Positions 9,076 to 54,640 of a DNA stretch of 64,000 nucleotides are shown piece after piece; position 1 is the stretch's first letter; the number at the start of each line of letters is the position of its first letter. Position numbers and translations under genes: made by a program. Source of the DNA: Rhodococcus oxybenzonivorans. GTDB taxonomy: Bacteria; Actinomycetota; Actinomycetes; Mycobacteriales; Mycobacteriaceae. Below the pieces are notes generated by a model. It was given only the letters and a program-made list of their open reading frames with translations, was not told the origin of the DNA and did not search any database. Location of the stretch: NCBI RefSeq assembly GCF_003130705.1, contig NZ_CP021354.1, positions 372,001 through 436,000 on the forward strand, given 5' to 3'.

Positions 9076-9149
9076 GGGCGCTTCGCGCCCCGTGCGCGGG
9101 TGAAGAGTCCAGAGACTCGTTAACCGCGCACGGGCGGCGGAGCCGCCTA
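9076..9149. repeat. Intergenic palindromic element, copy 1
   Basis: Three hairpins in a row. Left: GGGCGC-TTC-GCGCCC (9076-9090). Central: arms CCGTGCGCGG (9090-9099) and CCGCGCACGG (9124-9133), imperfectly extended inward, enclosing an inner stem GAGTC-CAGA-GACTC (9105-9118). Right: GGCGGC-GGA-GCCGCC (9133-9147). The block ends CTA, which is the reverse of the TAG stop of the minus-strand dehydrogenase. Similar units lie at 36689-36759 and 54567-54640. It could act as a terminator or as a mobile repeat of the REP/BIME kind. Confidence 0.7.
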
Positions 9150-9914
9150 CCGCGGGGCCATGCGCAGCGCGCCATCCATACGAATGGTCTCACCGTTGAG
9201 GTAGTCGTGTTCGACAATCATCTGAGCGAGCTGCGCGTATTCGGCGGGCTGGCCGAGGCGGGAGGGGAACGGGACCCCGGCCTCGAGTCCCTTGCGATAC
9301 TCGTCGGTGACGCCGGCGAGCATCGGGGTGTCGATGATGCCGGGGGCGATGGTGTTGACGCGGATGCCGAACTGGGCGAGGTCGCGGGCGGCGGGGACGG
9401 TCATGCCGTGCACGCCACCCTTGGAAGCGGAGTAGGCAATCTGGCCGATCTGGCCTTCGAACGCGGCGACGGACGCGGTGTTGATGATGACGCCGCGCTG
9501 CCCGGACTCGTCGACGGTGTCGGTCTTGGAGATGGCGTCGGCGGCCAGTCGCATGACGTTGAACGTGCCGAGCAGGTTGACGGTGATGACCGTGCGGAAC
9601 AGTTCGAGGTCGTGGGGGCCCTTCTTCGACAGGATGCGCCCGGCCCATCCGACACCGGCACAGTTGACCACGATGCGCAGCGGCAGCCCCGATTCGACGA
9701 TCTTCGCGACTGCGGCCTGGACCTCGTCGCCGCTGGTGACGTCGGTGGCGAGGAGGGTCACGCCTTCCGGGACGGTGTCGCCGGCGCGCTCGATGGACTG
9801 CTGCAGGTCCAGTCCGAAGACGGTGGCTCCGGCGTCGACGAGACGCTTGGCGGTGGCGGCACCGAGGCCCGACGCTGCTCCCGTGACCAATGCGGCGGTT
9901 CCCTGAATTTCCAC
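9147..9914 (-). CDS. SDR family 3-hydroxyacyl-CoA dehydrogenase type
   Basis: 255 aa classical short-chain dehydrogenase. The NAD(P)-binding motif TGAASGLG is at about 10-17, LLATDVTS marks the adenine site, NCAG is the structural motif, and the catalytic Ser-Tyr-Lys set is IINTASVAAFEG with YSASKGG. IAPGIIDTPM completes the fold. The HSD10-like 3-hydroxyacyl-CoA dehydrogenase group fits best (fatty acid or steroid beta-oxidation). GTG at 9914 was chosen: AGAAAAGG lies upstream and the conserved fold starts immediately (VEIQGTAALVTG). An upstream reading of 129 codons is an artefact. The TAG stop falls inside the palindromic element. Confidence 0.88.
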   Translation of the reverse strand: MEIQGTAALVTGAASGLGAATAKRLVDAGATVFGLDLQQSIERAGDTVPEGVTLLATDVTSGDEVQAAVAKIVESGLPLRIVVNCAGVGWAGRILSKKGPHDLELFRTVITVNLLGTFNVMRLAADAISKTDTVDESGQRGVIINTASVAAFEGQIGQIAYSASKGGVHGMTVPAARDLAQFGIRVNTIAPGIIDTPMLAGVTDEYRKGLEAGVPFPSRLGQPAEYAQLAQMIVEHDYLNGETIRMDGALRMAPR

Positions 9915-10017
9915 TGTTCGAATCCTTTTCTCCGGCTGACCCGAGTTGGTCAACCCTGGTGACCTGCACCATAACGCGGCCAGCTCATGGCAGCAGAGGC
10001 AAGGTGTGCCCGACCGG

Positions 10018-10611
10018 CTACTCCGTGGAATTCCCGAAGTCCGCTCGCAGGTAGCGGCACCCTGTTCGACCGCTGACCAGTGCGGCTCGCGCTGTGCCGA
10101 GACGAATCTCGTTGCCGTCACCGCTGTGGAGTCGCACGTTGTGGTCTCCCGGTCGATCTGCCCGTACCTCGATGTGCGCGAATCCGTGTGCCGTCGCAAT
10201 GTCTCGAGCCGCCCGGAGCACTGCGGGCCACTCGGCGTCGGGGATGGGACTCGTCGAATACATGTCGGGAAGAAAGACCGACATCCCGGCGGTACTCGCA
10301 AACGGCACTGAGCAGCTTCCCTGAGTCCGGTCGCCCGCCGATACCCAGCGAAGCGTGGGCACGATGGTTGCGGCGGCGTCAGCGATCTGGTGCGCCACGC
10401 TCGCGACCGTCGCTTCCGCGTCCTCTAGCGGAGACCACTGGCGCATCCGCCCCTCGGCGGCCGCAATGTCGGCGGCAGTGCCGTTGTACGGGTTGTCTGT
10501 CATTGCACTCCCCAATCCTGTGACGGCAGCACCTCCTGTGACGGCCGTCAGAAAAATCCCCACGGCAATTGCGGCGGCCCGGTGAGCCGGGCGACGGCGG
10601 TCGGCAATCAC
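10018..10611 (-). CDS. LppA-like exported protein without lipobox
   Basis: 197 aa. An N-terminal basic region and one hydrophobic helix (about 13-33) form a signal or anchor, but there is no Cys for lipidation. The following segment (MRQWSPLEDAEATVASVAHQIADA) and the later SRTGC-type region resemble mycobacterial LppA/LppB proteins; two Cys remain in the mature part (GSCSVPF and GRTGCRY), perhaps a disulfide. The ATG overlaps the stop of the DUF1023 hydrolase by 4 bases (ATGA), so it is coupled to it and may act on or protect against it. Function unknown. Confidence 0.7.
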   Translation of the reverse strand: MIADRRRPAHRAAAIAVGIFLTAVTGGAAVTGLGSAMTDNPYNGTAADIAAAEGRMRQWSPLEDAEATVASVAHQIADAAATIVPTLRWVSAGDRTQGSCSVPFASTAGMSVFLPDMYSTSPIPDAEWPAVLRAARDIATAHGFAHIEVRADRPGDHNVRLHSGDGNEIRLGTARAALVSGRTGCRYLRADFGNSTE

Positions 10612-35773: not shown

Positions 35774-36688
35774 GTGGCAAAGAAGAGCAAGAGAAACAGT
35801 GGACCGAAGCCCGACAGTGCCCGCGCCGAGAAGCTCGCGCAGCGGAAGGCGGAACGGGAAAGTGCCGCCGCGGCCGTGACGCGCCCCTTCGAAGGCCTTG
35901 CCGCGGAATGCGACCTCGTCGCGCTGCGTGAATTCGTCCCCTCCGCAACAGCACCGCTGCCGGTGAAGGACTCCTCGCGTCCGGTGACGTTGGCGACCGT
36001 CCTGCCGGGTGCCGTGGCGGCGCTCGTCCGTGACGAAGGCGAGGACGCCACCGGGTTCGTCGGTGTACAGGTCCAGGCGCACTCTGCGGACCTCGGTGCC
36101 GACTTGGCGGCCTCCGTCGTGTGGGTTCGAGACGCCGCGGCCGGAGAATCGCTGGCCTCCGCCAACCCCGGTGCCGACACCCCCGCACCGGCCGAGGTGA
36201 TCGACGCGGACGCTCTGCTCGACATCACGGTGCACCAGGATTTCAACTGGTGGATCCCCGAAGGGGTGGAACCGGCACCCGAGGTCGCGACCACGGTGCA
36301 GCACGCCAACGCGGCAATCATGCCGTCCGCGCGGGTCGAAGCCGAAGGCGTCGTGGCGGCGTGGTGGGTAGATGCGGGGGAGAAGGCGCACATCCGCTGG
36401 GTGCGTCCCGAAAACGAGGACGACCTGATGCTGGCGCTGGCGCGGGTCCACGCCACCGGCGGGCTGCACCTGGGTGAAGGGTCGCGCTATGCCGGCTCCT
36501 TCCGGACGCACGGCCTTCTCGTTCCGGTCTTCGACCTGGATCGAGAGAAGCACCCCAACGAGTGGGCGGCCGCCACGGTCGAGCTCGGTGACCGACTCGC
36601 GCAGGCGCTGGCCGTCGATGCTCCGCTCACCACCGACGAGCGCCGCGCCCGCGACGGCCTCCGCGGTCGCCAGGTCACGTTGCGCTAG
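35774..36688 (+). CDS. DUF5926 family protein
   Basis: 304 aa. A basic N-terminus (AKKSKRNSGPKPDSARAEKLAQRKAER) precedes a soluble domain with FNWWIPEGVEP, AAWWVDAGEKAHIRWVRPENEDDLML and LDREKHPNEWAAATVELGDRL. This matches the actinobacterial DUF5926 family, of unknown function; some members carry a C-terminal SEC-type zinc site, not seen here. ATG 35774. Its TAG stop opens the copy-2 palindromic element. Confidence 0.82.
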   Translation: MAKKSKRNSGPKPDSARAEKLAQRKAERESAAAAVTRPFEGLAAECDLVALREFVPSATAPLPVKDSSRPVTLATVLPGAVAALVRDEGEDATGFVGVQVQAHSADLGADLAASVVWVRDAAAGESLASANPGADTPAPAEVIDADALLDITVHQDFNWWIPEGVEPAPEVATTVQHANAAIMPSARVEAEGVVAAWWVDAGEKAHIRWVRPENEDDLMLALARVHATGGLHLGEGSRYAGSFRTHGLLVPVFDLDREKHPNEWAAATVELGDRLAQALAVDAPLTTDERRARDGLRGRQVTLR

Positions 36689-36759
36689 GCCCTCCGGGCC
36701 CGTGAGTGGTTAAGGAGTGCAGAGACTCGTTAACCACTCACGGGCGGCGGAGCCGCCTA
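36689..36759. repeat. Intergenic palindromic element, copy 2
   Basis: Left hairpin GCCC-TCC-GGGC (36689-36699) directly follows the DUF5926 stop. The central stem is a perfect 16-bp inverted repeat, GCCCGTGAGTGGTTAA (36698-36713) with TTAACCACTCACGGGC (36730-36745), enclosing GAGTG-CAGA-GACTC. The right hairpin GGCGGC-GGA-GCCGCC (36743-36757) ends in CTA, the complement of the bfrB TAG stop. Both convergent genes thus end at the element's edges, a fitting bidirectional terminator. Confidence 0.75.
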
Positions 36760-37998: not shown

Positions 37999-38022
37999 GC
38001 GGCTCAGTTTACGGATGCGACG

Positions 38023-39489: not shown

Positions 39490-39510
39490 GACTTTACTGG
39501 TCTCGAAGGA

Positions 39511-40323: not shown

Positions 40324-40365
40324 GCGGCAACGCTAGCGCGCGGGACCCTGAGTTGCCGATGCCGA

Positions 40366-41130: not shown

Positions 41131-41156
41131 GGAGCCTCCTTCGGGAGCAGCGGTAC

Positions 41157-41175
41157 TGAGGTAAACCTAACCTAA
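41157..41175. promoter_or_regulatory. IdeR/DtxR-like iron box
   Basis: TGAGGTAAACCTAACCTAA matches the 19-base consensus TTAGGTTAGSCTAACCTAA at 16 positions. It lies 27-45 bases upstream of the DUF2470 gene and 43 bases before the divergent 41218 gene, overlapping the expected promoter, so repression by iron-loaded IdeR is predicted. Confidence 0.7.
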
Positions 41176-41217
41176 TGTGACGTGCGTCGGTTGGCAAGAC
41201 CACCGCAGGATTACGGT

Positions 41218-41925: not shown

Positions 41926-41978
41926 AGATTCACCGCATAGCGCCGGGCCGTCAACTCTCGATGCGTAATCTCATAGGC

Positions 41979-42896: not shown

Positions 42897-43564
42897 GCGG
42901 CAAGCTGATTCTGGTACGGCACGGACAGACCGAGGCGAACGTCGAACGCCGACTCGACACCCGGCTGCCCGGCGCACCGCTGACCCCGGAGGGGCAGGCC
43001 CAGGCCGACGCTCTCGGGGCCCGGCTCGCGGCCCGTGCGTCGCTCGCTGCGCTCGTCAACTCGGAGGCCCTGCGCGCCCGGCAGACGGCGGGCGCGGTCG
43101 AACGTGCCACCGGGCTTACCGCCCAGACCCGTGAGGGGTTGTACGAGGCGCAGGCGGGTGAACTCGAGGATCGCCGTGACGATGAATCGCACGCCCTGTT
43201 CATGAAGACATTCCACCTGTGGCACGCGGGTGAGCTGGGAGCCCGCGTACCCGGTGGCGAATCCGCTCACGACATCCTCGACCGCTACGTGCCGGTCGTC
43301 GATACCCTGCGCGCGGAGTATCTCGACGATCCGAACCGATCGGGAGATGTCGTCCTCGTCAGCCACGGCGCCGCGATCCGCCTCGTCGCCGCACAGCTGG
43401 CGGATGTTCCCGGGCTGTTCGCCGCCAATAACCACCTCGCGAACACGGAGTCGGTCGAGTTGGTACCGACCCCCGGCGGAGGCTGGGAATGTGTGCGGTG
43501 GGGAACGATCGAGCCGCCGTTCGAACATCGCGTGATTCCCGGGGCCGACGACCCGATGGGGTGA
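42893..43564 (+). CDS. Histidine phosphatase (phosphoglycerate mutase-like)
   Basis: 223 aa. LILVRHGQTEANVERRLDTRLPGAPLT has the phospho-acceptor His in RHG and the second Arg; SEALRARQTA and VVLVSHGAAIR supply the remaining Arg and His. It is a cofactor-independent acid-phosphatase-type member, substrate unknown. GTG 42893 overlaps the pheA TGA (GTGA). Same pairing as M. tuberculosis Rv3837c-Rv3838c. Confidence 0.92.
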   Translation: MSGKLILVRHGQTEANVERRLDTRLPGAPLTPEGQAQADALGARLAARASLAALVNSEALRARQTAGAVERATGLTAQTREGLYEAQAGELEDRRDDESHALFMKTFHLWHAGELGARVPGGESAHDILDRYVPVVDTLRAEYLDDPNRSGDVVLVSHGAAIRLVAAQLADVPGLFAANNHLANTESVELVPTPGGGWECVRWGTIEPPFEHRVIPGADDPMG

Positions 43565-43628
43565 ATGCGTTGCGGACTTCCACCCGCTGCGCGACGATGG
43601 AGAAAACCGTCCTCGAGGAGTGACGGCA

Positions 43629-45023
43629 ATGGAATGGTTCGTAGCCGAAGACTATTCCCTCGGGCGGCTGCTCGTCACCGAGGGGCTCGCGGCGATCTAC
43701 CTTGTCGCCTTCCTGGGCGCGGTGCATCAGTTCAGGCCGCTCGTCGGTAGTGACGGCATGATGCCGATTCCGCGGTTCCTGCGGGCCGTCCCCTTCGCAC
43801 GCGCACCGAGTGTCTTTCACTTCCACTACTCGGATCGGTTCTTCGCGGCAGTTGCCTGGACTGGCGCCGGGTTGGCACTCGCGACTCTGCTGGGTGCGAC
43901 GCAATTCATGCCGCTTGCCGCCTGCATGCTGGTGTGGTTGGTGCTGTGGATCCTCTACCTGTCGATCGTCAACGTCTCGCAAATCTGGTACAGCTTCGGC
44001 TGGGAGTCGCTACTCCTTGAAGCCGGGTTTCTGGCGATTTTCCTCGGTAACTCCTCCGTCGGTCCGCCGATTCTGGTGCTGATTGCGGTGCGGTGGTTAT
44101 TGTTCCGGCTCGAGTTCGGCGCCGGACTGATCAAGATGCGCGGCGACAAATGCTGGCGTGACCTCACCTGCCTCTACTATCACCACGAAACCCAGCCGAT
44201 GCCCGGCCCGCTCAGCTGGTACTTCCACCGAATGCCGAAAAGACTCCACCGGCTCGAGGTGCTGGGAAATCACTTCGCGCAATTAGTGATGCCGTTCGGG
44301 CTGTTTGCGCCCCAGCCGGTGGCGGCGATCGCCGCGGCCGTCATGATCATCACTCAACTGTGGCTGGTGGCGAGCGGTAACTTCTCCTGGCTGAACTGGA
44401 TCACGATCGTGCTGGGTCTGTCGGTCATCCCGGACAGTGTGTTCGAGATGGTTGTGCCGGTATCGCTCCCGGAGGGAAGTTCGTCGGCGCCGCTGTATTT
44501 CGTCGTCCTGGTGGTCGCTGTGACAGCGTTGGTGGTGGTGCTGAGTTACTGGCCGATCCGCAACATGATCTCGCACGGTCAGCGGATGAATGCGTCGTTC
44601 AACTCGTGGCATCTGGTGAACACCTACGGCGCCTTCGGCAGCGTCACCAAAGTTCGGTACGAAGTGATTGTGGAGGGGACATCCGACTCGGCGATCACCG
44701 CGCAGTCCGAATGGAAGGAGTACGAGTTCAAGGGAAAACCGGGTGATGTGAATCGCCGGCCACGGCAGTTCGCGCCGTACCATCTGCGGCTCGATTGGTT
44801 GTTCTGGTTTATTCCGATCTCACCGGGCTATGCCGATCCATGGTTTCCTGCCTTCGTGGAGCGGCTGCTGAGGAACGACCGCGACACGCTGAAACTCCTG
44901 CGCCACAATCCTTTCCCCGACGCCCCGCCTCAACATGTGCGTGCACGCCTGTACCGCTACCGGTTCACCACCTGGAAGGAGCGCCGCGAGACGGGGGCGT
45001 GGTGGAAGCGTGAACCGGTGTAA
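43629..45023 (+). CDS. Lipase maturation factor family membrane protein
   Basis: 464 aa. The family is recognised by many helices plus conserved blocks SFGWESLLLEAGFLAIFLG, RWLLFRLEFGAGLIKMRGDKCWRDLTCLYYHHETQPMPGPLSWYFH, and a C-terminal soluble segment EWKEYEFKGKPGDVNRRP with APYHLRLDWLFWF. LMF1 proteins assist lipase folding in animals; the bacterial role is unknown. ATG 43629 sits nine bases after GAGGAG, better than GTG 43620. The gene interrupts the mycobacterial order between the phosphatase and the metallopeptidase. Confidence 0.9.
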   Translation: MEWFVAEDYSLGRLLVTEGLAAIYLVAFLGAVHQFRPLVGSDGMMPIPRFLRAVPFARAPSVFHFHYSDRFFAAVAWTGAGLALATLLGATQFMPLAACMLVWLVLWILYLSIVNVSQIWYSFGWESLLLEAGFLAIFLGNSSVGPPILVLIAVRWLLFRLEFGAGLIKMRGDKCWRDLTCLYYHHETQPMPGPLSWYFHRMPKRLHRLEVLGNHFAQLVMPFGLFAPQPVAAIAAAVMIITQLWLVASGNFSWLNWITIVLGLSVIPDSVFEMVVPVSLPEGSSSAPLYFVVLVVAVTALVVVLSYWPIRNMISHGQRMNASFNSWHLVNTYGAFGSVTKVRYEVIVEGTSDSAITAQSEWKEYEFKGKPGDVNRRPRQFAPYHLRLDWLFWFIPISPGYADPWFPAFVERLLRNDRDTLKLLRHNPFPDAPPQHVRARLYRYRFTTWKERRETGAWWKREPV

Positions 45024-45024
45024 C

Positions 45025-45816
45025 TCAGTGCAATCTGTCGGCCAGGAACTCGAGGGCCTGGCGCAGACGTTGTGGTGTACCCGGGCTCAGAGAAGACCAG
45101 GCGACGCCATGCGCGGATACGCTGGACGTGCCGACGATTCGCCCTTTGTGCGTGTCGAATACGGTAACGGGACCACCGACGGGGTCGTACTGCCCGTCGC
45201 CGTACACGATTCCCACTATTTCGGCGTAGGTGTTGCAGGTTGCCATCGCGGTGCCCAACGCGGTGGCATCGGACGGCGCGACACCGAGTGCGGTGAGGCC
45301 AGCCGCGAGAGCGTTACCGTCACCTCCCGCGTCGAACACCTCACCGAGTTGGGCAGTGGGTGCGTTGACCACGCCGAAGTCCATCGGCTCCGCGGTGCCG
45401 AGGGCAGCGATGACCGGCGCAAAGATGTCGACGCCGGCGTCCTGCACCACGTAGGTGTCGCCGGCGCGCATGGTGAGCACCGACATGGTGTCGCCCCGGG
45501 AAACACACAACCGCGAGATGCTTCCGTCGACGTACCAGCGCAGAGCAATTTCCCACCGCGGGCGGGCAAGAACCTGCAGCCCGGCAGCAAGCTCGGCGCG
45601 AACCTCACCGCCCGGGAGGAGATCCCGGGCGGTGAGGCCGGCGACGGCGTCGCGAAACGCTGTGTCCCTGGCTTCGTACGAGTCGTACCGCGGGCCGGCG
45701 TCGAGCACCACCGGCAGGACGTCGAGCGCGAGCCGGTCGACGAGGACATCCATCTCGTCGAGGCTCAGGGTCGCCGCCGGCAGGGTCGGTCCCGCCTGGG
45801 TGCCCAGGTCTATCAA
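45025..45816 (-). CDS. EspG family ESX secretion-associated protein
   Basis: 263 aa. Sequence and context fit EspG: LSLDEMDVLVDRLALDVLPVVL at the N-terminus, RWYVDGSISRLCVSRGDTMSVLTM in the middle, and helical TPQRLRQALEFLAD at the end. EspG proteins bind the tip of PE-PPE pairs and keep them soluble for delivery to a type VII secretion system. The ATG overlaps the PPE stop by four bases, so translation is coupled with its predicted client. Confidence 0.85.
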   Translation of the reverse strand: MIDLGTQAGPTLPAATLSLDEMDVLVDRLALDVLPVVLDAGPRYDSYEARDTAFRDAVAGLTARDLLPGGEVRAELAAGLQVLARPRWEIALRWYVDGSISRLCVSRGDTMSVLTMRAGDTYVVQDAGVDIFAPVIAALGTAEPMDFGVVNAPTAQLGEVFDAGGDGNALAAGLTALGVAPSDATALGTAMATCNTYAEIVGIVYGDGQYDPVGGPVTVFDTHKGRIVGTSSVSAHGVAWSSLSPGTPQRLRQALEFLADRLH

Positions 45817-47018
45817 CGTCCGCTCTCCGGGTGGTCGGGGTTGGCGCCGATCACCGAAGGAATGACCGTGCGTCCGTCGGCGAAGTGCTCGAAGTTTTTC
45901 AGATAATCGGGGGTGTCCCGTTCTTCGTCGTCCTGCGAACCGGCCGGACCCGCGCCGCGCCCGCTCATCATGGGTCCGCTACCCGTTGCTCCACGTGCCG
46001 CCGTAGCGGGATTCATGTCGGCCCGGACGTCTCCGATCACTGCGCCGGGTGTGGCCGCGGGCGCTCCGGGCCGAGCACCCTGGCCCAGAGCATCCGTCTT
46101 TCCCCAGCCCTCGGGAAGAGTCGCACCGCCGGCTCCCGTCCCGGCACCGAGCGCACCGGCCGACGTCCGTGCTGCCGCCGTCGACGTGGAAGCCGCGCCG
46201 CCACCGCTGTACGAGCCACCCGACAGCATCGGCGCACCAGCCATCATCGGGGTGGCCGCCGAGCTGGTGGCCGCGGACAGCGCCGCCCCACCGATGTTGC
46301 TCGCCGCCGACGTGGCGGTGGAAACGGTGGTACCGGCGATACTGCCGACCTGCGATGCGGCGGTGGTGACCGCGGGATTCTGACCGGCCGCCATCAGCGC
46401 GGCGGCGGCGGCCCGTGTCGGGTCGAAGTTGCCGTCCTGCGGGACGTCCTCGAAGGTTCCGACCTCTTTGGAATCGGCTTTGGTGACGATGCGTGGGGGC
46501 TGCTTGTACGGGCGTTTGAGCGCGAGGATGTTGGATGCGGCCTCGTACCCCTCCATCACGAGCCCTGCCCGGATGTCCATCGCCCGGTCGGCGGCCTCGG
46601 CGACTGCCGCGGAACCGTTGAGAGCACCGCCCGTCGAGTAGGCGGTGGCCTTCGCGGTCTTGACCGCCACGATCTCGGGAATGCTGGGCATGATGAGGGC
46701 GGCCGTCGTGTATGCGCCCGCCTCGAGTCCGGCCTTGACGGCGGTGTCTGCCGCCAGTTCGGCGCACTCGGCCGTCCATACCGTGAACGGCGTGATCTTG
46801 GCGAGTGCGGCCACGGCCGATACGCCCTGCCAGCCGGCGGCCAGCTCGGCCATCACCCGAACGAGCGTGAGGTTGGCGTCGACGAAGCTGGTGGACAGCG
46901 CAGTCCATGCAGCGCTCGCCACGCTGAGCGGCACCGGGCCTGCGCCCGCGATGAGCGTGGTCGAGTTGACGGTGGCCCCGCGGGGCAACCAGATGACACC
47001 TGTCAGTCCCATGGTCAT
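45813..47018 (-). CDS. PPE family protein
   Basis: 401 aa. The N-terminal ~170 residues are PPE-like: GVIWLPRGATVNSTTLIAGAGPVPLSVASAAW, then a WxG element ELAAGWQGVSAVAAL, then TVWTAECAELAADTAVKA and PSIPEI. The literal Pro-Pro-Glu is absent. Residues about 260-380 are Gly/Ala/Ser/Thr-rich low complexity, and the C-terminus is acidic. ATG 47018 follows AGGAGA at 8 bases; the longer upstream reading is antisense to nothing useful and lacks a ribosome site. Expected partner of the PE protein encoded 34 bases upstream. Confidence 0.85.
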   Translation of the reverse strand: MTMGLTGVIWLPRGATVNSTTLIAGAGPVPLSVASAAWTALSTSFVDANLTLVRVMAELAAGWQGVSAVAALAKITPFTVWTAECAELAADTAVKAGLEAGAYTTAALIMPSIPEIVAVKTAKATAYSTGGALNGSAAVAEAADRAMDIRAGLVMEGYEAASNILALKRPYKQPPRIVTKADSKEVGTFEDVPQDGNFDPTRAAAAALMAAGQNPAVTTAASQVGSIAGTTVSTATSAASNIGGAALSAATSSAATPMMAGAPMLSGGSYSGGGAASTSTAAARTSAGALGAGTGAGGATLPEGWGKTDALGQGARPGAPAATPGAVIGDVRADMNPATAARGATGSGPMMSGRGAGPAGSQDDEERDTPDYLKNFEHFADGRTVIPSVIGANPDHPESGR

Positions 47019-47052
47019 GTGCGATTCTCCTACTGGTCTCGAGGCGTACCGG

Positions 47053-47358
47053 TCACATGCCCGCAGCGAGCGACGCGCCCAGGGCAAAGTCCTCGGCGGC
47101 GTACAGAGCGGCTTGGGTGCGGAGCGTGTTCGCGGTCTCCCGCATCTCGAGAATTCCTTGGGCGACAGCAGGAGTGAACGTTCCTGCGACCGTGTTGAAG
47201 TAACCGGCGGCATGGAGGGAGACTTCTTCGCTCCCCGACGGGAGTACCCGGATTGCTGCGGAGTTCAGTGCGACCGAAGCCTCGAGGCGCGCGGCGAGCG
47301 CGTCGAGTTCCACGGCGGCGGCGACAAGAGCTTCGGGTGCGACGTGCAGAGCTGGCAT
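47053..47358 (-). CDS. PE family protein
   Basis: 101 aa, exactly a PE domain: MPALHVAPEALVAAAVELDA, helix, HAAGYFNTVAGTFTPAVAQG, helix, and the type VII export signal YxxxD in LYAAEDFALG. The literal Pro-Glu is present as APEAL. ATG 47358 follows AAGGAG. It heads the PE-PPE-EspG operon. No ESX core gene (eccC, mycP) is in the window, so a secretion system elsewhere must serve it. Confidence 0.85.
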   Translation of the reverse strand: MPALHVAPEALVAAAVELDALAARLEASVALNSAAIRVLPSGSEEVSLHAAGYFNTVAGTFTPAVAQGILEMRETANTLRTQAALYAAEDFALGASLAAGM

Positions 47359-47480
47359 TGCGTCGAACTCCTTCTGACCTAGGCGGGTACGGAAGGCAGT
47401 TGCCCCCCGGCAAGCGAACTGCATGGTGCAGCGTCCCTACTTCCTTGGACGCCGCCACGCGCTCTTCGGTTCCCCCCGAT

Positions 47481-47501
47481 CCCGAGAAAAAAATTCTCGG
47501 G
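47481..47501 (-). terminator. Hairpin after the septum-formation/metallopeptidase pair
   Basis: CCCGAGAA-AAAAA-TTCTCGGG, an 8-bp stem whose minus-strand loop is T-rich, 9 bases past the metallopeptidase stop. It separates that pair from the PE operon promoter. Confidence 0.55.
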
Positions 47502-47509
47502 AAAACCGT

Positions 47510-47860
47510 TCATCCCCAGCCGAGCTCGTGCAAGCGATCTTCTTCTATCCCGAAGTAGTGTGCAACCTCGTGGATCACGGTAACGGCCACTTCGTGAACG
47601 ACTTCCTCCTCTGAACTGCACATTTCGAGGAGGGCGTCGCGGTAGATGGTAATCGTATCGGGTAGCGAACCGCCGTAATGACTGTCCCGTTCGGTCAGCG
47701 CTATTCCGTGGTACAGCCCGAGGAGATGCGGATCGTCTTCGTTGCGGTCGTCGACGAGGACGACGACGTTGTCGATTGCGGTCGCGAGTTGAGGCGGAAT
47801 CAGATCGAGAGCGTCCCCCACCAATTCCTCGAATCGGTCGGGCGTCATCAGAACCGGCAC
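47510..47860 (-). CDS. Minimal zincin-type metallopeptidase (DUF1025)
   Basis: 116 aa. The zinc motif VTVIHEVAHYFGIEEDRLHELGW is an extended HExxHxxG...H, characteristic of the small metallopeptidase family exemplified by M. tuberculosis Rv3836. The N-terminus (MTPDRFEELVGDALDLIPPQL) is also conserved. It may also start at ATG 47848 rather than GTG 47860. It follows the septum-formation gene by one base, so the two are coupled. Protein substrate unknown. Confidence 0.88.
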   Translation of the reverse strand: MPVLMTPDRFEELVGDALDLIPPQLATAIDNVVVLVDDRNEDDPHLLGLYHGIALTERDSHYGGSLPDTITIYRDALLEMCSSEEEVVHEVAVTVIHEVAHYFGIEEDRLHELGWG

Positions 47861-47861
47861 C

Positions 47862-48968
47862 TCAGCGCCCGGGAACCGGAGCTGCGCCGGGAAGCGGTGT
47901 CGGCATCGACCTGCCCTCCGGAGTAGGCGGTGGCGGTACCGGCGCTGCGCCGTTGATCAGGATGTCGCCCTTGGCGGACCCGGTGATGGTCGAGAAGCCG
48001 CCGGTGTCGGTCTCCTTGCCCACCGAACAGTTGATGCGCCTGCTGCCCGCCAGCCAGCTGTCGAGTTCCAGGTTGTCCCAGAACAGGGTGAGGGTCTTGT
48101 TCCGCAACGCGTCCGCCGAGCCGAGAAATTCGTTGGACGCCTGGGTGCACACGCCCTCGAGGTACTTGTCCTGATCTTCGACCGACGGCATCGAACCCGG
48201 GAACTGGGTGCCGAGATCGACCACGGAGATCACCTCGTACGCGTGGGGCTGCACGCAGTCGACGGGATCGGTGGGGACATTCTGATTGATGCCGATGCAG
48301 GTGCCGGGATCCCAGACATTGGATTGGTCCTGCTCGGCCACCCGCCCACTGAAAGGCAGCAAAGTGCCTGCGGTGCCAGAGAATTGGAGACCGCACCGCA
48401 GGGTGCGCTCCCCGGCGGTCCAGCCTGCCTCGCTGGGGAACATGAGACCGACGCTGAACTTCCCGTAAGGGTCGAAACGCGAACCCAGGTAGGTCTCGAC
48501 GGCGGGCACGCAGTGCTCGTCCCGCAGCTCGGCGAACCGCAGGGCGCCCGGGTAGCGCGAACCCGGGCCGAACTCTGCGCCCGGGTAGACACTGAGATCC
48601 AGAGGGGCCGCCACCTCGAAACGGTGCTCCTCGGAGCAGTCGACTTTCGCGACGTCCTTGCGATCCTCTTTCGGATCGTTCGACGGTGTCCAGTCGAGGC
48701 AGTCGCCGGCGATCGCCGATGCGAAAGCCTCCCCTTCCACCGACGCGGTGGCCTGGGGTCCGGGGTCGCCCGAGTGGGTGGGTAGATTCTCGCTGCGCTC
48801 GAACCCACCTGCGATCGCGAAGGTCGCGATCGCCGCGACCACGGCGCCGATCGCGACAGCAGCGAGCGCGCGACGCGTCGTGGTCGCGGACATGGTGCGG
48901 GGTGCCTTGGTCGGTTGCCCGGCGTTCCCGGGCTGCGGTTCGGCACCGTTCGGCTGATCTGAGGACAT
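47862..48968 (-). CDS. Septum formation family membrane protein
   Basis: 368 aa. A Pro/Gln-rich cytosolic start, one membrane helix (about 33-53), then an extracytosolic region with two related Cys-containing repeats (AGDCLDWTPSNDP to DCSEEHRFEV, and PGTCIGINQNVPTDPVDCVQPHAYEVISVVDLG), the pattern of the Septum_form domain, with a Pro-rich tail. Same position as Rv3835. Its role is unproven although the family name suggests division. ATG 48968. Confidence 0.88.
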   Translation of the reverse strand: MSSDQPNGAEPQPGNAGQPTKAPRTMSATTTRRALAAVAIGAVVAAIATFAIAGGFERSENLPTHSGDPGPQATASVEGEAFASAIAGDCLDWTPSNDPKEDRKDVAKVDCSEEHRFEVAAPLDLSVYPGAEFGPGSRYPGALRFAELRDEHCVPAVETYLGSRFDPYGKFSVGLMFPSEAGWTAGERTLRCGLQFSGTAGTLLPFSGRVAEQDQSNVWDPGTCIGINQNVPTDPVDCVQPHAYEVISVVDLGTQFPGSMPSVEDQDKYLEGVCTQASNEFLGSADALRNKTLTLFWDNLELDSWLAGSRRINCSVGKETDTGGFSTITGSAKGDILINGAAPVPPPPTPEGRSMPTPLPGAAPVPGR

Positions 48969-49049
48969 CGTTTTCCATCATGCCCGTTCCGGTGCGAGAA
49001 GCAGAACAACTCCTTCGATCAGGTTCGCGGCGGGGTAGCTTCGAGTGCC

Positions 49050-49469
49050 ATGAACGACCATTCGCAGCCCTCCGCCGAACCTGTGGATCCGGAACTCCAG
49101 GAACTCGCGGGCCGGGTGTTCGATGCCGCACGCGCGGGTGACGCAGTGGCGTTGGCCACGTACATCGACGCCGGGGTCCCGGTGAACCTCACCAACCAGA
49201 ACGGCGACACCCTCGTCATGCTGGCCGCCTACCACGGCCATGCCGAGGCGGTCCAGGCTCTGATCGACCGCGGTGCCGACGTCAACCGACTCAACGACAA
49301 GGGCCAGTCACCGCTGGCAGGGGCGTTGTTCAAGGGTGAGGACGGGGTGGTGTGCACCCTCGTCGCGGGCGGTGCCGACCCCACAGCCGGGCACCCCACC
49401 GCGGTGGACGCCGCGCGCATGTTCGGCCGGGAAGATCTCCTGAGCCTGCTGGAACCGAAACCCGAATGA
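49050..49469 (+). CDS. Ankyrin repeat protein
   Basis: 139 aa, three ankyrin repeats: DAVALATYIDAGVPVNLTNQNGDT, LVMLAAYHGHAEAVQALIDRGADVNRLNDKGQSPLAGALFKGEDG, and VCTLVAGGADPTAGHPTAVDAARMF. No enzyme domain. It presumably binds a protein partner; it is not secreted. ATG 49050 and a 33-base gap to serS suggest cotranscription with it. Confidence 0.9.
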   Translation: MNDHSQPSAEPVDPELQELAGRVFDAARAGDAVALATYIDAGVPVNLTNQNGDTLVMLAAYHGHAEAVQALIDRGADVNRLNDKGQSPLAGALFKGEDGVVCTLVAGGADPTAGHPTAVDAARMFGREDLLSLLEPKPE

Positions 49470-49502
49470 GCGCGCCGGAGGCGCCCGGTAGGGTTTGACA
49501 CC

Positions 49503-50759
49503 GTGATTGACCTGAAGTTCCTCCGCGAGAACCCCGACGCCGTCCGCGAGTCGCAGCGCACCCGCGGTGAAGATCCTGCGCTGGTCGACGCGCTGCTCGA
49601 GGCCGATGCGTCCCGTCGCGCCGCGGTACTCGCCGGTGACACTCTGCGCGCCGAGCAGAAGGCCTTCGGTAAGAAGGTGGGCCAGGCGTCCCCCGAGGAA
49701 CGGCCCGCGCTGCTCGAGGGATCCAAGGAACTCGCGGCCAAGGTCAAGCAGGCCGAGGCGGAGCAGCACGAGGCGCAGGCCGCGCTCGATGCCGCGCACC
49801 GGGCGATCTCCAATATCGTCCAGGACGGCGCCCCGGCCGGTGGCGAGGACGACTTCGTCACCCTGGACACGGTCGGCGATGTCCCCACGTTCGACTTCGA
49901 GCCCAAGGACCACCTCGAGTTGGGCGAGTCGCTGGGACTGATCGACATGGAACGCGGCGCGAAGGTGTCCGGCGCCCGGTTCTATTTCCTCACCGGGTTC
50001 GGCGCCATGTTGCAACTCGGAATGCTGCAGCTCGCCGCGCAGAAGGCAATGGCCAACGGGTTCCAGATGATGATTCCCCCCGTGCTGGTGCGCCCCGAGA
50101 TCATGGCGGGCACCGGATTCCTCGGCGCCCACGCGGACGAGATCTACCACCTTGCCGACGACGACCTCTACCTCGTCGGAACTTCCGAGGTCCCGCTCGC
50201 CGGGTACCACTCGGGCGAGATCCTCGATCTTTCCGCAGGCCCGAAGCGGTACGCGGGTTGGTCGACCTGCTTCCGCCGGGAAGCAGGCAGCTACGGCAAG
50301 GACACCCGCGGAATCATCCGGGTCCACCAGTTCGACAAGGTGGAAATGTTCACCTACTGCAAGCCCGAGGATGCCGACGCCGAGCATCAGCGTCTGCTGG
50401 CCTGGGAGCGCGACATGCTGGCCGCAATCGACGTCCCCTACCGGGTGATCGACGTCGCCGGGGGCGATCTGGGTTCCTCGGCTGCCCGCAAGTTCGATTG
50501 CGAGGCGTGGGTGCCCACCCAGCAGGCGTACCGCGAGCTCACATCCACGTCGAACTGCACGACGTTCCAGGCGCGGCGCCTCGGCGTGCGGTACCGCGAC
50601 GAGAACGGGAAGCCGCAGACTGCTGCCACCCTGAACGGCACGTTGGCCACCACGCGGTGGATCGTGGCGATCCTCGAGAACCACCAGCAGTCCGATGGGA
50701 CGGTACGCGTGCCGGAGGCGCTGGTGCCCTTCGTCGGTACGGACGTATTGAAGCCGTAA
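49503..50759 (+). CDS. serS: Seryl-tRNA synthetase
   Basis: 418 aa, class II synthetase. An N-terminal coiled-coil arm (about 30-100, [18 protein letters not shown]) binds tRNA-Ser. Motif 2 is [29 protein letters not shown]; motif 3 is [49 protein letters not shown] is the serine-specific region. It charges tRNA-Ser with serine. GTG 49503. Confidence 0.97.
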
Positions 50760-50773
50760 AAGAATACTGTCCG

Positions 50774-50792
50774 TTATGCAAGGCTACCCTTG
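50774..50792. promoter_or_regulatory. Iron-box-like site 1 upstream of bfd
   Basis: TTATGCAAGGCTACCCTTG matches the 19-base IdeR consensus at 13 positions and lies within a larger dyad ATGCAAGG-CTAC-CCTTGCAT (50776-50795). It lies 62 bases before bfd. Confidence 0.45.
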
Positions 50793-50806
50793 CATCTGCG
50801 CCCCAA

Positions 50807-50825
50807 TGATGTAACCCTTACCTAA
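50807..50825. promoter_or_regulatory. Iron-box-like site 2 upstream of bfd
   Basis: The minus strand reads TTAGGTAAGGGTTACATCA, about 13 of 19 with the IdeR consensus, its best half being TTAGGT. Centre-to-centre spacing to site 1 is 33 bases (about three helical turns). Confidence 0.45.
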
Positions 50826-50853
50826 TCAGATAGTTCGCGTAAGGGAGCTCCAC

Positions 50854-51036
50854 ATGTTCGTGTGCATCTGCAAGGCCGTCACCGAGACCGAGGTGCACGA
50901 ACATGTGCACGACGGTGCCGACTCTGCAGATGCCATCGGTGAGCGATGTGGAGCCGGATGGGGGTGTGGAACCTGCGTCGACCGCCTCGAAGAAATTCTC
51001 TGTGCGTACGCGGAGCGTAATCGCACAGCTGCCTGA
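50854..51036 (+). CDS. bfd: Bacterioferritin-associated ferredoxin
   Basis: 60 aa. The [2Fe-2S] ligands are CxC (Cys4, Cys6) and CxxC (Cys38, Cys41) as in Bfd, with a third nearby Cys32. Bfd donates electrons to bacterioferritin to release iron when iron is scarce. ATG 50854 follows AAGGGAG. The bacterioferritin gene lies 77 bases downstream, and iron-box-like sites lie upstream, fitting induction when iron is low. Confidence 0.93.
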   Translation: MFVCICKAVTETEVHEHVHDGADSADAIGERCGAGWGCGTCVDRLEEILCAYAERNRTAA

Positions 51037-51113
51037 CAACTGACACCACGATCCGCTGCGGAGAGTGGTCGAGCCTGATACGGTCGCATTAGTCCCGGCG
51101 ACCGGAGGTTGTC

Positions 51114-51599
51114 ATGCGCGGTAACGACGAGGTAATCGCTCTTCTCAACGAACAGTTGACGAGTGAGCTGACGGCAATCAACCAGTATTTCCTGCACTCG
51201 AAGATGCAGGCCAACTGGGGTTTCACCAAACTGGCGGCGAAGACGCGTGCCGAGTCCATCGAAGAGATGATTCACGCCGAGATCTTGACCGACCGCATCC
51301 TCTTTCTCGAGGCGCTACCGAACTATCAGAAGCTGCTCCCGCTGCGCATCGGACAGGATCTGCGAGAGCAGTTCCACTCCGACCTCGCGGTCGAGCTCGA
51401 GGTTGTCGAACGCCTGCGTCCCGGAATTCAGATGTGCCGGGAGAAGGGCGACGCGACGTCGGCGAAGCTACTCGAAGGCATCCTCGCGGAAGAAGAGGAG
51501 CACATCGACTATCTGGAGACACAGATCGAGTTGATGGACAAGATGGGCGATCAGCTGTACATGGCCCAGCTCGTCGATCAGCCACCGACAGCCGGGTAG
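51114..51599 (+). CDS. bfr: Bacterioferritin (haem-containing)
   Basis: 161 aa. Met52 of SIEEMIHAE is the haem ligand; Glu18, Glu51 and His54 are in the ferroxidase centre, completed by EEEEHIDYLE near 127-136. It forms 24-mer shells that oxidise and store iron. ATG 51114 follows GGAGG. With Bfd upstream it forms a store/release pair, distinct from the two haem-free ferritins at 36.8-38.0 kb. Confidence 0.95.
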   Translation: MRGNDEVIALLNEQLTSELTAINQYFLHSKMQANWGFTKLAAKTRAESIEEMIHAEILTDRILFLEALPNYQKLLPLRIGQDLREQFHSDLAVELEVVERLRPGIQMCREKGDATSAKLLEGILAEEEEHIDYLETQIELMDKMGDQLYMAQLVDQPPTAG

Positions 51600-51709
51600 T
51601 CGATCGACGAAAACCGCGCGACTCGCTGGGCGCTCTGTGTAAAAATGGGCGCGTGAGATATCCCGCCGCTCAGCCTTGACCCAGCTCCCAGCGATCGCTC
51701 ACCGTCCGC

Positions 51710-52894
51710 GTGGTCGGTTACACCGCCACGCGTGACCTCATTCCGCTTTTCGGTCTCTACGACCTGCTGTTCGCCGACCACGGCCTCAGCGTCGGACAGA
51801 TTTCGTCGCTACTCGTCATCTGGTCCGTCGTATCGTTCGTCGCCGAGGTGCCCTCGGGCGCGTGGGCCGACACCGTGTCCCGGCGTGGACTGCTCGTCTT
51901 CGCCTCCGCCCTGTACACCGCGGGATTCACCGTGTGGGTGGTGGCGCCGTCGTATGCAGGCTTCGCAGCCGGATTCGTGTTGTGGGGCATCAGTGGCGCC
52001 ATCCAGTCCGGAACGTTCGAGGCGTTGCTGTACGACGAACTTGCCGCGCGGGGGAAGTCGGAGACCTTCGCCCGGCTCCTCGGCTACGCCAACTCCGGCG
52101 CCATGGCGAGCAACCTCGTCGCCACGCTGACCGCGGCGCCGCTCTTCGTTCTGGGTGGTTACACGCTGGTCGGATGGGCCAGTGTCGCTGCGACGGTGGT
52201 GCACGGAGGCTTCGCACTACTGCTTCCCGCTGCGCCGAGAGCAGCCGACGCGGACGAAACACGGGAAGTGGCCGGCGGGCGTGGACTGCTGTCCCGCTAC
52301 GCCGGGATGCTCCGGGCCGGGGTCGGGGAGGTGTCGCACGACACGGTGCTCCGCCGAGGCGTGGTGCTGTCGTCGGTGCTCGTCGGATTTCTCGCCTTCG
52401 ACGAGTACTTCGGCCTGCTCGCCCGCGACGGTGGCACCGCGACGGCGGCGGTGCCGTTGCTGGTGGCCATCACCGTCGCCGGCCAAGTGGTGGGTACCGC
52501 GGCGGCCGGCCGGACGGCGTCGATGCGAGCGGTGACGATGAGCCGTGTCGTCGCAGCGGGTGCCGTATTGCTCGGTGCCGGAGCGCTTCTGGGTGGTGTC
52601 ACCGGGTTCGCGGCAATCGGCGCGGGCTACGGCATCCTCGGCAATGCCATGATCGTGTCGGAAGCTCGTGTGCAGGACGCGATCACCGGTCCGGCGCGGG
52701 CCACCGTCACCTCGGTGTCGGGGCTGTTCGGCGAGATCACCGCACTTCTGATCTACGTGGGTTTCGCTGTCGGCTCGACGTGGTTCTCGGTCACCACACT
52801 CGTTGCCGCACTGGCTGTCCCGGTGCTGCTGTCGGCGGTCCTGGTGCGCCGGTGGCTGCCACCGGTTCGGCTGGACACACCCACCGCCGGGTGA
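51710..52894 (+). CDS. MFS transporter
   Basis: 394 aa, about eleven to twelve helices. The conserved loop 2-3 motif is EVPSGAWADTVSRR. GTG 51710 starts VVGYTATRDLIPLFGLYDLLF, close to where homologues enter helix 1. An in-frame GTG at 51653 opens a peptide VRYPAAQP that ends at TGA 51677-51679, so the usual N-terminal lead may have been cut by a point mutation. Substrate unknown. The TGA opens a long hairpin. Confidence 0.82.
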   Translation: MVGYTATRDLIPLFGLYDLLFADHGLSVGQISSLLVIWSVVSFVAEVPSGAWADTVSRRGLLVFASALYTAGFTVWVVAPSYAGFAAGFVLWGISGAIQSGTFEALLYDELAARGKSETFARLLGYANSGAMASNLVATLTAAPLFVLGGYTLVGWASVAATVVHGGFALLLPAAPRAADADETREVAGGRGLLSRYAGMLRAGVGEVSHDTVLRRGVVLSSVLVGFLAFDEYFGLLARDGGTATAAVPLLVAITVAGQVVGTAAAGRTASMRAVTMSRVVAAGAVLLGAGALLGGVTGFAAIGAGYGILGNAMIVSEARVQDAITGPARATVTSVSGLFGEITALLIYVGFAVGSTWFSVTTLVAALAVPVLLSAVLVRRWLPPVRLDTPTAG

Positions 52895-52935
52895 ATGTAC
52901 CTTTCGGCGCCTCAGATGCGCCGAAAGGTACATTC
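52893..52935. terminator. Perfect 18-bp hairpin between convergent genes
   Basis: GAATGTACCTTTCGGCGC (52893-52910), loop CTCAGAT, complement at 52918-52935. It overlaps the MFS stop codon and precedes the convergent Rieske-gene stop by 10 bases. Probably a bidirectional terminator. Confidence 0.7.
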
Positions 52936-52945
52936 GCCCGAGCGA

Positions 52946-54526
52946 TCAGAGCTTGCTGGACCGCAGCTCGTGGCCCTTCGACGTCTTGCAGCGACCCGAC
53001 TCGAGGTCCCACTGCCAGCCGTGCAGGTTGCAGGTGAGATTGGTGCCGTCGACGACGCCGAACTTGGACAGGTCGGCCTTGAGGTGCGGGCAGCGACGCT
53101 GAATCTCGTAGCCGCCGAGCTCGATCGACGCCGAGTCGTCGTGGGCTTCTGCGAACCAGCCGTCGGCGTAGGCGATGCGCTCGTCGGTGAGGCACTTGAA
53201 GAACGTGTACAGGAACTCGTTGTAGCCGCCGACCCGCCACGCCTCGAAGCGGGTGGACAGGAAGATGGTGTTCACCCAGTCGGGTTCGTCGTCCCGGAGC
53301 ACGGTGCGGACCAATTCGGGCGCGATACGGAAGCCGTAGCGGTACTTGCCGTCCTTCTCCCCGCGCGGACGGACGATGCGCTGCGGGAAGTCGAGGACGA
53401 CGGTCTCGTCACCCATCACCAGACCGACCGGGTAACCGATACCGTCGCAGATCAGGTCGGACTGCTTCATGATCGGCTCGAACTTGGCCTTGAGCGCCTC
53501 GAACAACGGTTCGCCCTCGGCCGGAGCCCACCCCGCCTTCTCGGCGGCCAGGACCGGAGCCATCCGCTGCGCCATGTCCTCGATGTACGCGGCCTTCTCG
53601 GCGAAGATCTTGTCGACCTCGGCGTCGGGAATGGGGTGCGTCAGGGTGAGCGCACCGCCCTTCACATCCGCGGTGGACCCCGGGATCATCAATATCCCGC
53701 CGTCGTTGCCGTGAATCTTCATCTGCTCGAGGAACGTGATCTGGTCGGGGAAGATGTTGCCCTCGTCACCGCGGTCGTCGTTGAGGTAACGCAGCTCGCC
53801 GTCCAGGAACACCGGCGGACCTGCCGAGGGCACCACCCAGGTGGCGTCGACCTGCTCGATGTAACTGCGACACCGATCCATGCCGCGCTGACGCTTCTGC
53901 TTGCCGAAGTTGGCCTTCGTCTTGGTGGGAATGTCGTAGACCATCGGGTACCAGATGGCGCCTGAGTACTGCAGCAGGTGGATGTCGATCTTCCCGAACT
54001 CGTCGTGCAGGACGTCCATGTCGACGGGCCGGGCGTCGTTCATGTTGAAGCACGTCGTCTCGCCGTCGGACACCACGAGACCGGAGTCGCCGATCGGTCC
54101 GTCGGCGGGCGCCCGTAAGGCGATGATCATGATGTCCAGGTCGCCCGGCGCGAGCGGGGCCTGCGGAGCGACCTCGATTCCTGCCCCGTTGATCCTGTGC
54201 TTGACCGAATCCTCGGTCTCGAAGAATTTATGGAATCCGAGTGCCTCGAGTTCCCGTTTGAGGTCCGGCACCGGATAGTCGGGGAGCAGAACGGTGGCGT
54301 CCTTGTTGACGTGCTTGCTCAGGTTCTCCGGATCGAAGTGGTCCTTGTGTAGGTGCGATACGTACAGGTAGTCGCAGTTGCCGAGGGCGTCCCAGTCGAG
54401 CTGGGTGTTGTCCGGGAACGGGAACCACGCCCCGAAGTACGCGGGGTTCACCCAGGGGTCGCACAGGATCGATCCTGCCTCGGTTTGGATGTGAAATCCG
54501 GCGTGGCCGACGCTGGTGACCTGCAC
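52946..54526 (-). CDS. Metallo-beta-lactamase fold/Rieske [2Fe-2S] fusion (CMAH-like)
   Basis: 526 aa. The N-terminal half has the lactamase-fold metal motif VSHLHKDHFDPE (HxHxDH) and VTSVGHAGFHIQTEAGSILCDPW. The C-terminal ~80 residues form a Rieske centre: QRRCPHLKADL and LTCNLHGWQWDL (CxH...CxxH). The same two domains occur in CMP-N-acetylneuraminate hydroxylase, where the Rieske part is N-terminal. GTG 54526 has AGGAGG at seven bases. A hydroxylase or oxygenase needing electrons is expected; no sialic-acid genes are near, so the substrate is open. Confidence 0.85.
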   Translation of the reverse strand: MQVTSVGHAGFHIQTEAGSILCDPWVNPAYFGAWFPFPDNTQLDWDALGNCDYLYVSHLHKDHFDPENLSKHVNKDATVLLPDYPVPDLKRELEALGFHKFFETEDSVKHRINGAGIEVAPQAPLAPGDLDIMIIALRAPADGPIGDSGLVVSDGETTCFNMNDARPVDMDVLHDEFGKIDIHLLQYSGAIWYPMVYDIPTKTKANFGKQKRQRGMDRCRSYIEQVDATWVVPSAGPPVFLDGELRYLNDDRGDEGNIFPDQITFLEQMKIHGNDGGILMIPGSTADVKGGALTLTHPIPDAEVDKIFAEKAAYIEDMAQRMAPVLAAEKAGWAPAEGEPLFEALKAKFEPIMKQSDLICDGIGYPVGLVMGDETVVLDFPQRIVRPRGEKDGKYRYGFRIAPELVRTVLRDDEPDWVNTIFLSTRFEAWRVGGYNEFLYTFFKCLTDERIAYADGWFAEAHDDSASIELGGYEIQRRCPHLKADLSKFGVVDGTNLTCNLHGWQWDLESGRCKTSKGHELRSSKL

Positions 54527-54566
54527 TGGTATGCCTCCTGAAGAGCTGAGCGACTGTTCCAGGGTA

Positions 54567-54640
54567 GGCGGCTGCGCCAACCATGCGCCTTTCCGGTAGC
54601 CCCAACAGCCAAAAAGGCGCACGGGCGGCGGAGCCGCCTA
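54567..54640. repeat. Intergenic palindromic element, copy 3
   Basis: Left hairpin is degenerate (GGCG-GCTG-CGCC, 54567-54578). The variable stem is TGCGCCTTT (54584-54592) with AAAGGCGCA (54613-54621), loop of 20 with no inner stem. The constant right part CACGGGCGGCGGAGCCGCC ends CTA, again the complement of the neighbour's TAG stop. A divergent member of the family at 9076 and 36689. Confidence 0.65.

Follow-up and report, generated by a model that had tools for sequence, protein, structure and literature searches.

REP-like, stop-bearing palindromes at gene 3′ ends of Rhodococcus that probably evolve by gene-conversion-like core replacement

A 64,000-nucleotide stretch of the Rhodococcus oxybenzonivorans genome (contig NZ_CP021354.1, positions 372,001 to 436,000 of the forward strand; hereafter the window) contains three copies of a short intergenic palindromic element that abuts the stop codons of neighbouring genes (Table 1). 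Each copy comprises a small hairpin, a 40-nt palindromic core and a second small hairpin, with TA on the outside. The left end hairpin is GGGCGC-TTC-GCGCCC or a variant and the right end hairpin is GGCGGC-GGA-GCCGCC; the core starts with GTG in copies 1 and 2 and with ATG in copy 3, and ends with CAC in all three. TA is present at the right outer edge in three of three copies, where the G of a TAG stop is the first base of the hairpin. The 18-mer-bearing block GGGCGGCGGAGCCGCC matches exactly at 9132, 36742 and 54623, and 17 matches with at most three mismatches are found in the window (shuffle mean 6.9). An earlier note on this DNA had described the shared block, the complement of TAG as its last three bases each time, differing adjacent stems that still pair and an inner stem common to copies 1 and 2. 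Its sequences and coordinates are correct, the TAG complement lies where it was placed, the stems pair in all three copies, and the common inner stem belongs to a core that we call family A; copy 3 has a family B core. The description can be refined in that the element is two-ended, copy 2 bearing TAG on both sides for two convergent genes. In the following we argue that these copies belong to a group of repetitive extragenic palindrome (REP)-like, stop-bearing palindromes of Rhodococcus gene 3′ ends, which probably evolve by gene-conversion-like replacement of the core.

Table 1. Elements and related hairpins of the window (window coordinates).
Feature	Position	Strand	Remark
Copy 1, family A	9076..9149		between two minus-strand genes
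Copy 1 left end hairpin, GGGCGC-TTC-GCGCCC	9076..9090		
Copy 1 core, 40-nt palindrome GTGCGCGG...CCGCGCAC	9092..9131		
Copy 1 right end hairpin, GGGCGGCGGAGCCGCC	9132..9147		
Copy 1 TAG stop of minus-strand gene	9147..9149	-	one-base overlap with hairpin; gene product presumably an SDR-like oxidoreductase
Copy 2, family A	36686..36759		between convergent genes, TAG on both edges
Copy 2 TAG stop of plus-strand neighbour	36686..36688	+	the left hairpin begins with its G
Copy 2 left end hairpin, GGCCC-TCC-GGGCC	36688..36700		
Copy 2 core, family A	36702..36741		family B instead in G001, G006 and G019
Copy 2 right end hairpin	36742..36757		
Copy 2 TAG stop of minus-strand neighbour	36757..36759	-	neighbour taken to be ferritin-like
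Copy 3, family B core with A/B end hairpins	54565..54640		between two minus-strand genes
Copy 3 core, family B, ATGCGCCTTTCC...AAAAAGGCGCAC	54583..54622		
Copy 3 right end hairpin	54623..54638		
Copy 3 TAG stop of minus-strand gene	54638..54640	-	
Degenerate family A remnant	4871..4964		intact A elements at the orthologous site in G024 and G001
Unrelated plain hairpin, GCCGGCC-ACTTC-GGCCGGC	8384..8454		family A at this place in G024 and G001
Family D dispersed hairpin	52888..52940		convergent gene ends; family E at this place in G020 and G001

In the 8.0 Mb R. oxybenzonivorans genome the 18-mer is present 14 times, against 0 for its reversed control, which rules out a chance origin of the repeat. 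With copy 1 as the query, BLAST returned 59 rows, many of them the two strands of one palindrome. A covariance-model search of the genome and its relatives, as the earlier note had proposed, was run with a model (R1) built from 25 copies. At E ≤ 0.1, 140 rows were obtained in the R. oxybenzonivorans genome and merged to 86 loci, of which 84 were carried on (two at E 0.083 and 0.088 were dropped) and 82 were read in context, all but C1:1439975 and C1:6290702. By pattern, three unrelated cores are distributed over the 82 loci as 53 A, 15 B and 14 C, with A as the default class that takes in everything without a B or C match. The cores, 40-nt palindromes that are perfect or nearly so, start GTGAGTGGTTAACGAGTC... 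(A), GTGCGCCTTTCTGGTAGC... (B) and GTGAGTACTTATTAACCGC... (C); the end hairpins are common to A and B, and those of C are mostly different. Scanning the window and related genomes for hairpins revealed further dispersed gene-end hairpin families, D and E. A known RNA family was also considered as a candidate and rejected, no Rfam family matching the window at the gathering score.

Within the genus, 26 of 28 genomes have an R1 match at E ≤ 0.001 (150 candidates were scored, so that per-genome counts are lower bounds). The A core pattern is found in 18 of the 28 same-genus genomes and in 0 of 33 others, and a scan of 84,980 species returned 82 stretches, all 80 listed ones being titled Rhodococcus. 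Exact family B arms match in seven of 151 genomes; four of these belong to two other genera of the taxonomic family and carry the arms once each (G089, G123 and G174 of genus g10, and G129 of genus g43). The exact family C pattern is present 32 times in R. oxybenzonivorans, 51 times in G015 and 0 times in the other 149 genomes, including the sister genome G020. Insertion of C into the R. oxybenzonivorans genome after its split from G020 (32 copies against 0) is weakened as an explanation by decayed C remnants at two sites of G020.

The elements are biased towards gene 3′ ends and against divergent spacers. Among the 82 copies, 37 lie between convergent, 40 between tandem and four between divergent genes, with one undetermined; the 400 gene pairs of a 464 kb baseline region of the same genome are 71 convergent, 257 tandem and 72 divergent. 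Altogether, 114 gene 3′ ends face the copies, with TAG at 69, TGA at 36 and TAA at nine, compared with 110 TAG, 256 TGA and 35 TAA in the 401 genes of the baseline region. In 56 of the 114, the TAG shares exactly one base with the hairpin (43 of 74 facing ends in family A, 12 of 22 in B and one of 18 in C). Other stops are situated just outside the element (TGA at offset 0, eight cases) or within it (for example, TGA at offset 20, six cases). The lock to TAG stops described by the earlier note is therefore strong but not absolute. Its REP-like label agrees with the dispersal over 86 loci and with the bias to convergent and tandem spacers and gene 3′ ends: in the broad sense of a dispersed intergenic palindrome close to stops and favouring convergent or unidirectional spacers, the element is REP-like.

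TA lies outside 58 of 89 intact 3′-facing ends and 11 of 33 intact 5′-facing ends. The latter 11 have no gene 3′ end facing them, so that TA partly belongs to the element as such. The edge reads TA-GG, so that the element itself completes a TAG stop for an incoming gene on either side. Supply of the stop by the edge, as in published GTAG-type REPs, is the simpler reading of the TAG link, and a TAG bias at gene ends is then accounted for by the edge of a repeat.

The bacterial interspersed mosaic elements (BIMEs) of enterobacteria are paired REPs, two inverted small hairpins around a linker. The Rhodococcus elements resemble them in this arrangement and in their homogenization within a genome, but here the linker is a long palindrome drawn from several unrelated, exchangeable families. 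A parallel in position is offered by GTAG-type REPs, from which flanking open reading frames (ORFs) often obtain their TAG and which favour convergent or same-direction spacers (Di Nocera and colleagues 2013; PMC3733652). The article names GTAG repeats in Proteobacteria, Cyanobacteria, Chloroflexi and the PVC group; its text has 0 occurrences of Rhodococcus or Actinobacteria. As in the repeats described there, the Rhodococcus elements are short dispersed palindromes near the 3′ ends of mostly convergent or same-direction ORFs, their TAG edge often supplies the stop and their stems have alternative complementary letters. The elements could be true REPs or BIMEs moved by a RAYT transposase, each end hairpin being a GTAG-tagged REP placed head-to-head with the other around a long spacer. 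REP-like size, the palindromes, TAG at the foot, the convergent and tandem bias and the supply of stops as in PMC3733652 would fit, and Y1_Tnp is found in 12 of 28 genus genomes, with six matches in G001. However, the Y1/RAYT transposase (PF01797) has 0 matches in the R. oxybenzonivorans genome (control genomes, 5 of 14), and none in G019, which holds 60 B copies, in G024 or in G020. The base preceding TAG (n = 58) is G in 32, C in 18, A in six and T in two, whereas PMC3733652 gives GTAG in more than 90% for most families; the tag of the GTAG family is described there as unpaired, whereas here the last G pairs in the end hairpin; and a 40-nt core lies between the two end hairpins. Since neither the conservation of GTAG, nor an unpaired tag, nor a RAYT gene is found, we do not file the element as a GTAG REP and regard a RAYT-moved origin as very unlikely.

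The new point suggested by the comparison of related genomes is that cores are exchanged in place at orthologous gene ends. The copy 2 search had matches in all 28 genomes of the genus; 17 of them, plus G027, allowed the intergenic site to be read, the two genes being non-adjacent or outside the reading in the others. The site holds a family A element in eight (R. oxybenzonivorans, G020, G015, G018, G024, G005, G023 and G026), a family B element in three (G001, G006 and G019), diverged stems in G012 and G007 and no A or B element in G022, G002, G013 and G009; in G027 (L245) there is no element and the convergent genes nearly abut (TAG-CTCG-TCA). A tree built from both flanking genes splits the genomes with B: G001 (B) and G024 (A) are sisters with a support of 96/96, and G019 (B) falls together with G023 and G026 (A) with 98/98. 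These branches are well supported, and the B label therefore requires at least three changes. At C1:549317 of R. oxybenzonivorans, five genomes carry A and G001 carries B. Here the close relatives G024 and G001 are identical in 62 of 63 nt leftward through GTG and in 17 nt rightward from CAC, followed by a small length difference, so that the two differ just in the core between GTG and CAC.

At 52888, family D is present in R. oxybenzonivorans, G018 and G015 and family E in G020 and G001, although R. oxybenzonivorans and G020 are the closest pair (93%). At the copy 3 site, R. oxybenzonivorans and G020 have B; G015, G018, G024 and G001 show a plain hairpin, and in all four the gene stops in TGA, not TAG. 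The copy 1 site has A in G018, G024 (an A variant) and G001, and an internal deletion in G015. Some orthologous copies carry the form common in their own genome with the flanks kept, as in a gene-converted (concerted) family. Insertion of a miniature inverted-repeat transposable element (MITE) of the TA-inserting IS630/Tc1-mariner type, in which the duplicated TA together with the terminal G makes the stop codon, would account for TA at both outer edges of many copies, including the 11 of 33 ends without a facing 3′ end, for the uneven copy number of family C (32, 51 in G015 and 0 in the sister G020) and for the absence of an element at the copy 2 site in G027 and G013. We consider it improbable: no clean single-TA empty site was found, the copy 2 site of G027 and G013 included, the two C sites of G020 are decayed remnants rather than empty, and insertion would not give a precise core swap inside kept ends.

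Identical cores recur at unrelated places within one genome. With a relaxed pattern, B copies number 61 in G006, 60 in G019, 42 in G001 and 20 in G024. The exact 40-nt B core of the copy 2 site of G006 is present at seven of 33 listed B places of that genome (61 in all). The flanks of the seven sites differ, which argues against segmental duplication. Both flanks place five of the seven at element loci of R. oxybenzonivorans, all five of which are family A there; at one of them R. tibetensis also has A. The end hairpins are identical or differ by single letters at two of these loci (1846089 and 337446) and are partly different at the other three. Group-specific letters are also seen within family A. 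In copies with intact arms, every erythropolis-group arm has G as the third variable base (32 of 32), and C prevails at this base in the opacus group (53 of 66), R. oxybenzonivorans (47 of 62), R. tibetensis (17 of 24) and two metagenome-assembled genomes (22 of 26 and nine of 14); the first variable base is mostly G in the opacus group (53 of 66) and mostly A in R. oxybenzonivorans (42 of 62). These letters fit concerted evolution or lineage-specific amplification. The 40-nt core might alternatively be a mobile unit in its own right, homing into resident gene-end palindromes and displacing the previous core precisely between GTG and CAC, with the stop-bearing end hairpins left in place, by a dedicated site-specific or hairpin-cleaving activity instead of general gene conversion. 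We hold this to be rather unlikely; if it were true, the core repeated at seven G006 sites would be a live wave of replacement and the exact B arms in two other genera would record wider travels of the core.

Pairing is kept across copies. In the 25 aligned copies, 92.8% of the cells pair, compared with 33-41% for slid structures, and nine pairs have changed on both sides, which shuffles reach in 2 of 500 cases. At one orthologous site (C1:583733), the stem is GTGAGTGG/CCACTCAC in R. oxybenzonivorans and GTGCGTGG/CCACGCAC in four relatives. Core exchange or homogenization, rather than independent paired mutation, accounts for part of the variation between copies, and hairpins outside any repeated family show paired changes too (193772 and 218109). 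Stem mismatches read in the transcript sense comprise 35 G.T and 29 A.C in 98 tandem copies; the corresponding numbers are 30 and 37 in 96 convergent copies and 9 and 14 in 15 divergent copies. As RNA, the copies fold very stably, with z values of -3.8, of -8.3 and -9.8 on the two strands of copy 2, and of -6.9. The covariation and gene-end bias on which the earlier note had staked its proposal are both found in the copies examined. Its argument that pairing kept while sequence changes implies a selected structure stands as far as covariation beyond the shuffled and slid controls is concerned, but not as selection on RNA, given 35 G.T against 29 A.C. Its guess at a terminator gains no support from the sequence: T4 lies next to the element end in one of 82 copies, and a consensus terminator scan of 36500-55000 gave nine sites (8.5 in shuffles), none of them at copies 2 or 3.

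A selected RNA terminator is not shown, because G.T is not favoured over A.C and U-tracts are missing. Ordinary intrinsic terminators selected for RNA pairing, with families arising by descent and cores independently, would explain the position directly after stops and between convergent genes as well as the covariation and the paired changes at orthologous sites, and compensatory evolution is known for Bacillus cereus terminators (PMC5381666). An identical 40-nt core at seven unrelated sites, however, cannot be the result of independent evolution, and the elements have neither a U-tract nor an excess of G.T over A.C. Mycobacterial RNA polymerase reportedly requires a U-tract, to judge from the title of a study, which also speaks against terminators of this kind, and we judge them to be a poor candidate.

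Covariation may also arise without selection. In quasi-palindrome correction, a change in one arm is transferred to its partner by template switching inside the hairpin; this would explain the paired changes in hairpins of no family as well as the absence of an RNA-strand signature. Taken alone it is doubtful, although it deserves more weight than the other alternatives, since it leaves the exchange of families, the placement at stops and the dispersal unexplained; it is compatible with core replacement. The structure is maintained, and template switching inside the palindrome or a constraint at the DNA level would suffice equally. Covariation among dispersed palindromes can therefore come from copying instead of RNA selection, a warning for its use as evidence elsewhere. 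A DNA-level constraint of a particular kind would be a dyad site for a DNA-binding protein (nucleoid, segregation or fork barrier) with the sequence kept for binding. The core sequence is indeed kept, not pairing alone, and exact B arms are found singly in four genomes of two other genera, but at least three unrelated cores serve the same places and such a role seems improbable to us.

We return to core replacement as the reading that we favour. The sequences themselves show how the elements are built, that they supply stops, that their sites are conserved, that cores differ in place and that one identical core recurs at many sites. Elements persist at orthologous gene ends across species, and on the proposed mechanism would have their cores swapped in place from elsewhere. 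Instability of the palindrome would lead to breaks or stalls within the core; repair or template switching would then use a different copy by way of the end hairpins and GTG/CAC edges that the two share, and the core would be replaced. Selection would keep some strong gene-end hairpin, of whichever family, by which the transcript is protected or delimited. As cores would be taken from other copies, copies within one genome would come to resemble each other (concerted evolution). The route, we infer, is an ectopic repair resembling gene conversion, or template switching, with the shared end hairpins and the GTG/CAC edges as seeds. The role at the gene end would be to fold the transcript 3′ end, protecting it or separating convergent genes, and not that of a U-tract terminator.

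Several points weigh against this reading. The mechanism of the exchange was not observed. Nine of the 12 mapped A-E sites of the 464 kb region show no change of family in relatives and three do; these 12 are hairpin-scan finds mapped in at least one relative, six more being unmapped and copy 3 falling below the hairpin threshold. Hairpins of no family also differ at some orthologous sites (region positions 142739 and 197125), and hairpin turnover is thus wider than the families. Two of the seven identical-core sites of G006 are unmapped, the mapping of the other five relies on R. oxybenzonivorans loci matched by a model made from A copies, and only at copy 2 does a tree support the direction from A to B. 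The gene ends counted above come from a home-made codon scorer trained on 15 ORFs of the window, errors included. The tandem copies show no wobble preference (G.T against A.C, 98 copies), and hence no sign of selection on the RNA strand. Finally, a three-hairpin RNA fold had to be rejected, as the minimum-energy RNA fold of the copies is one long hairpin. The case for separate end hairpins accordingly rests on the paired changes in the ends, and such hairpins may be relevant only in DNA or as alternative folds.

Other gene-end hairpins share some of these properties. In the uptake-sequence terminators of Neisseria and Pasteurellaceae, paired copies of the 9-11 nt uptake signal are followed by T tails (PMC1852404); they too are dispersed repeats with inverted pairs at gene ends. 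Unlike them, the Rhodococcus elements have no T tail. We know of no role in uptake for the Rhodococcus elements. Stop-proximal hairpins in convergent spacers are general (PMC1590033), and the stem-loop families described near 3′ ends in 40 genomes (PMC1590033 and PMC2267715) likewise consist of repeated hairpins with convergent-spacer and stop-proximal bias; Rhodococcus has 0 occurrences in the text of PMC1590033 and a count of 0 in the term listing of PMC2267715. Hairpin-cluster terminators (PMC8355165) also place several hairpins directly after the stop with no U-tract, but have short stems of 2-10 bp and no repeated family, whereas here the family is repeated and the stem is about 18-20 bp. 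REPs at most 15 nt from a stop are reported to stall ribosomes (PMC12306157). No description of these Rhodococcus repeats was found in the literature searched, with subscription papers mostly outside its range. Taken together, the elements may provide exchangeable gene-end parts for Rhodococcus and an unusually direct view of how a dispersed bacterial palindrome evolves: kept flanks with differing cores at orthologous sites make the exchange visible and datable, with no classical REP transposase detected. Whether REPs evolve by gene conversion has reportedly been a question since 1988, when it was put in the title of a paper by Higgins and colleagues.

Two further observations concern family C. 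It is present at G018 290550 and G015 99826 (script coordinates), and no such hairpin is found in the corresponding interval of about 200 bp in R. oxybenzonivorans. A family C palindrome of G018 and G001 (locus set L260, L268-L271) is split near its loop by about 1.8 kb of inserted DNA whose ends are like GGGGGGCTGTT...AACAGCCCCCC (positions 7419-9256 of the concatenated region in G018 and 8387-10241 in G001); the insert resembles an insertion sequence with the hairpin loop as its target. In the window, the hairpin CTCGAGCGCTGGTGGTC... at 57726-57762 is kept in place in five of five relatives compared and serves as an unswapped control.

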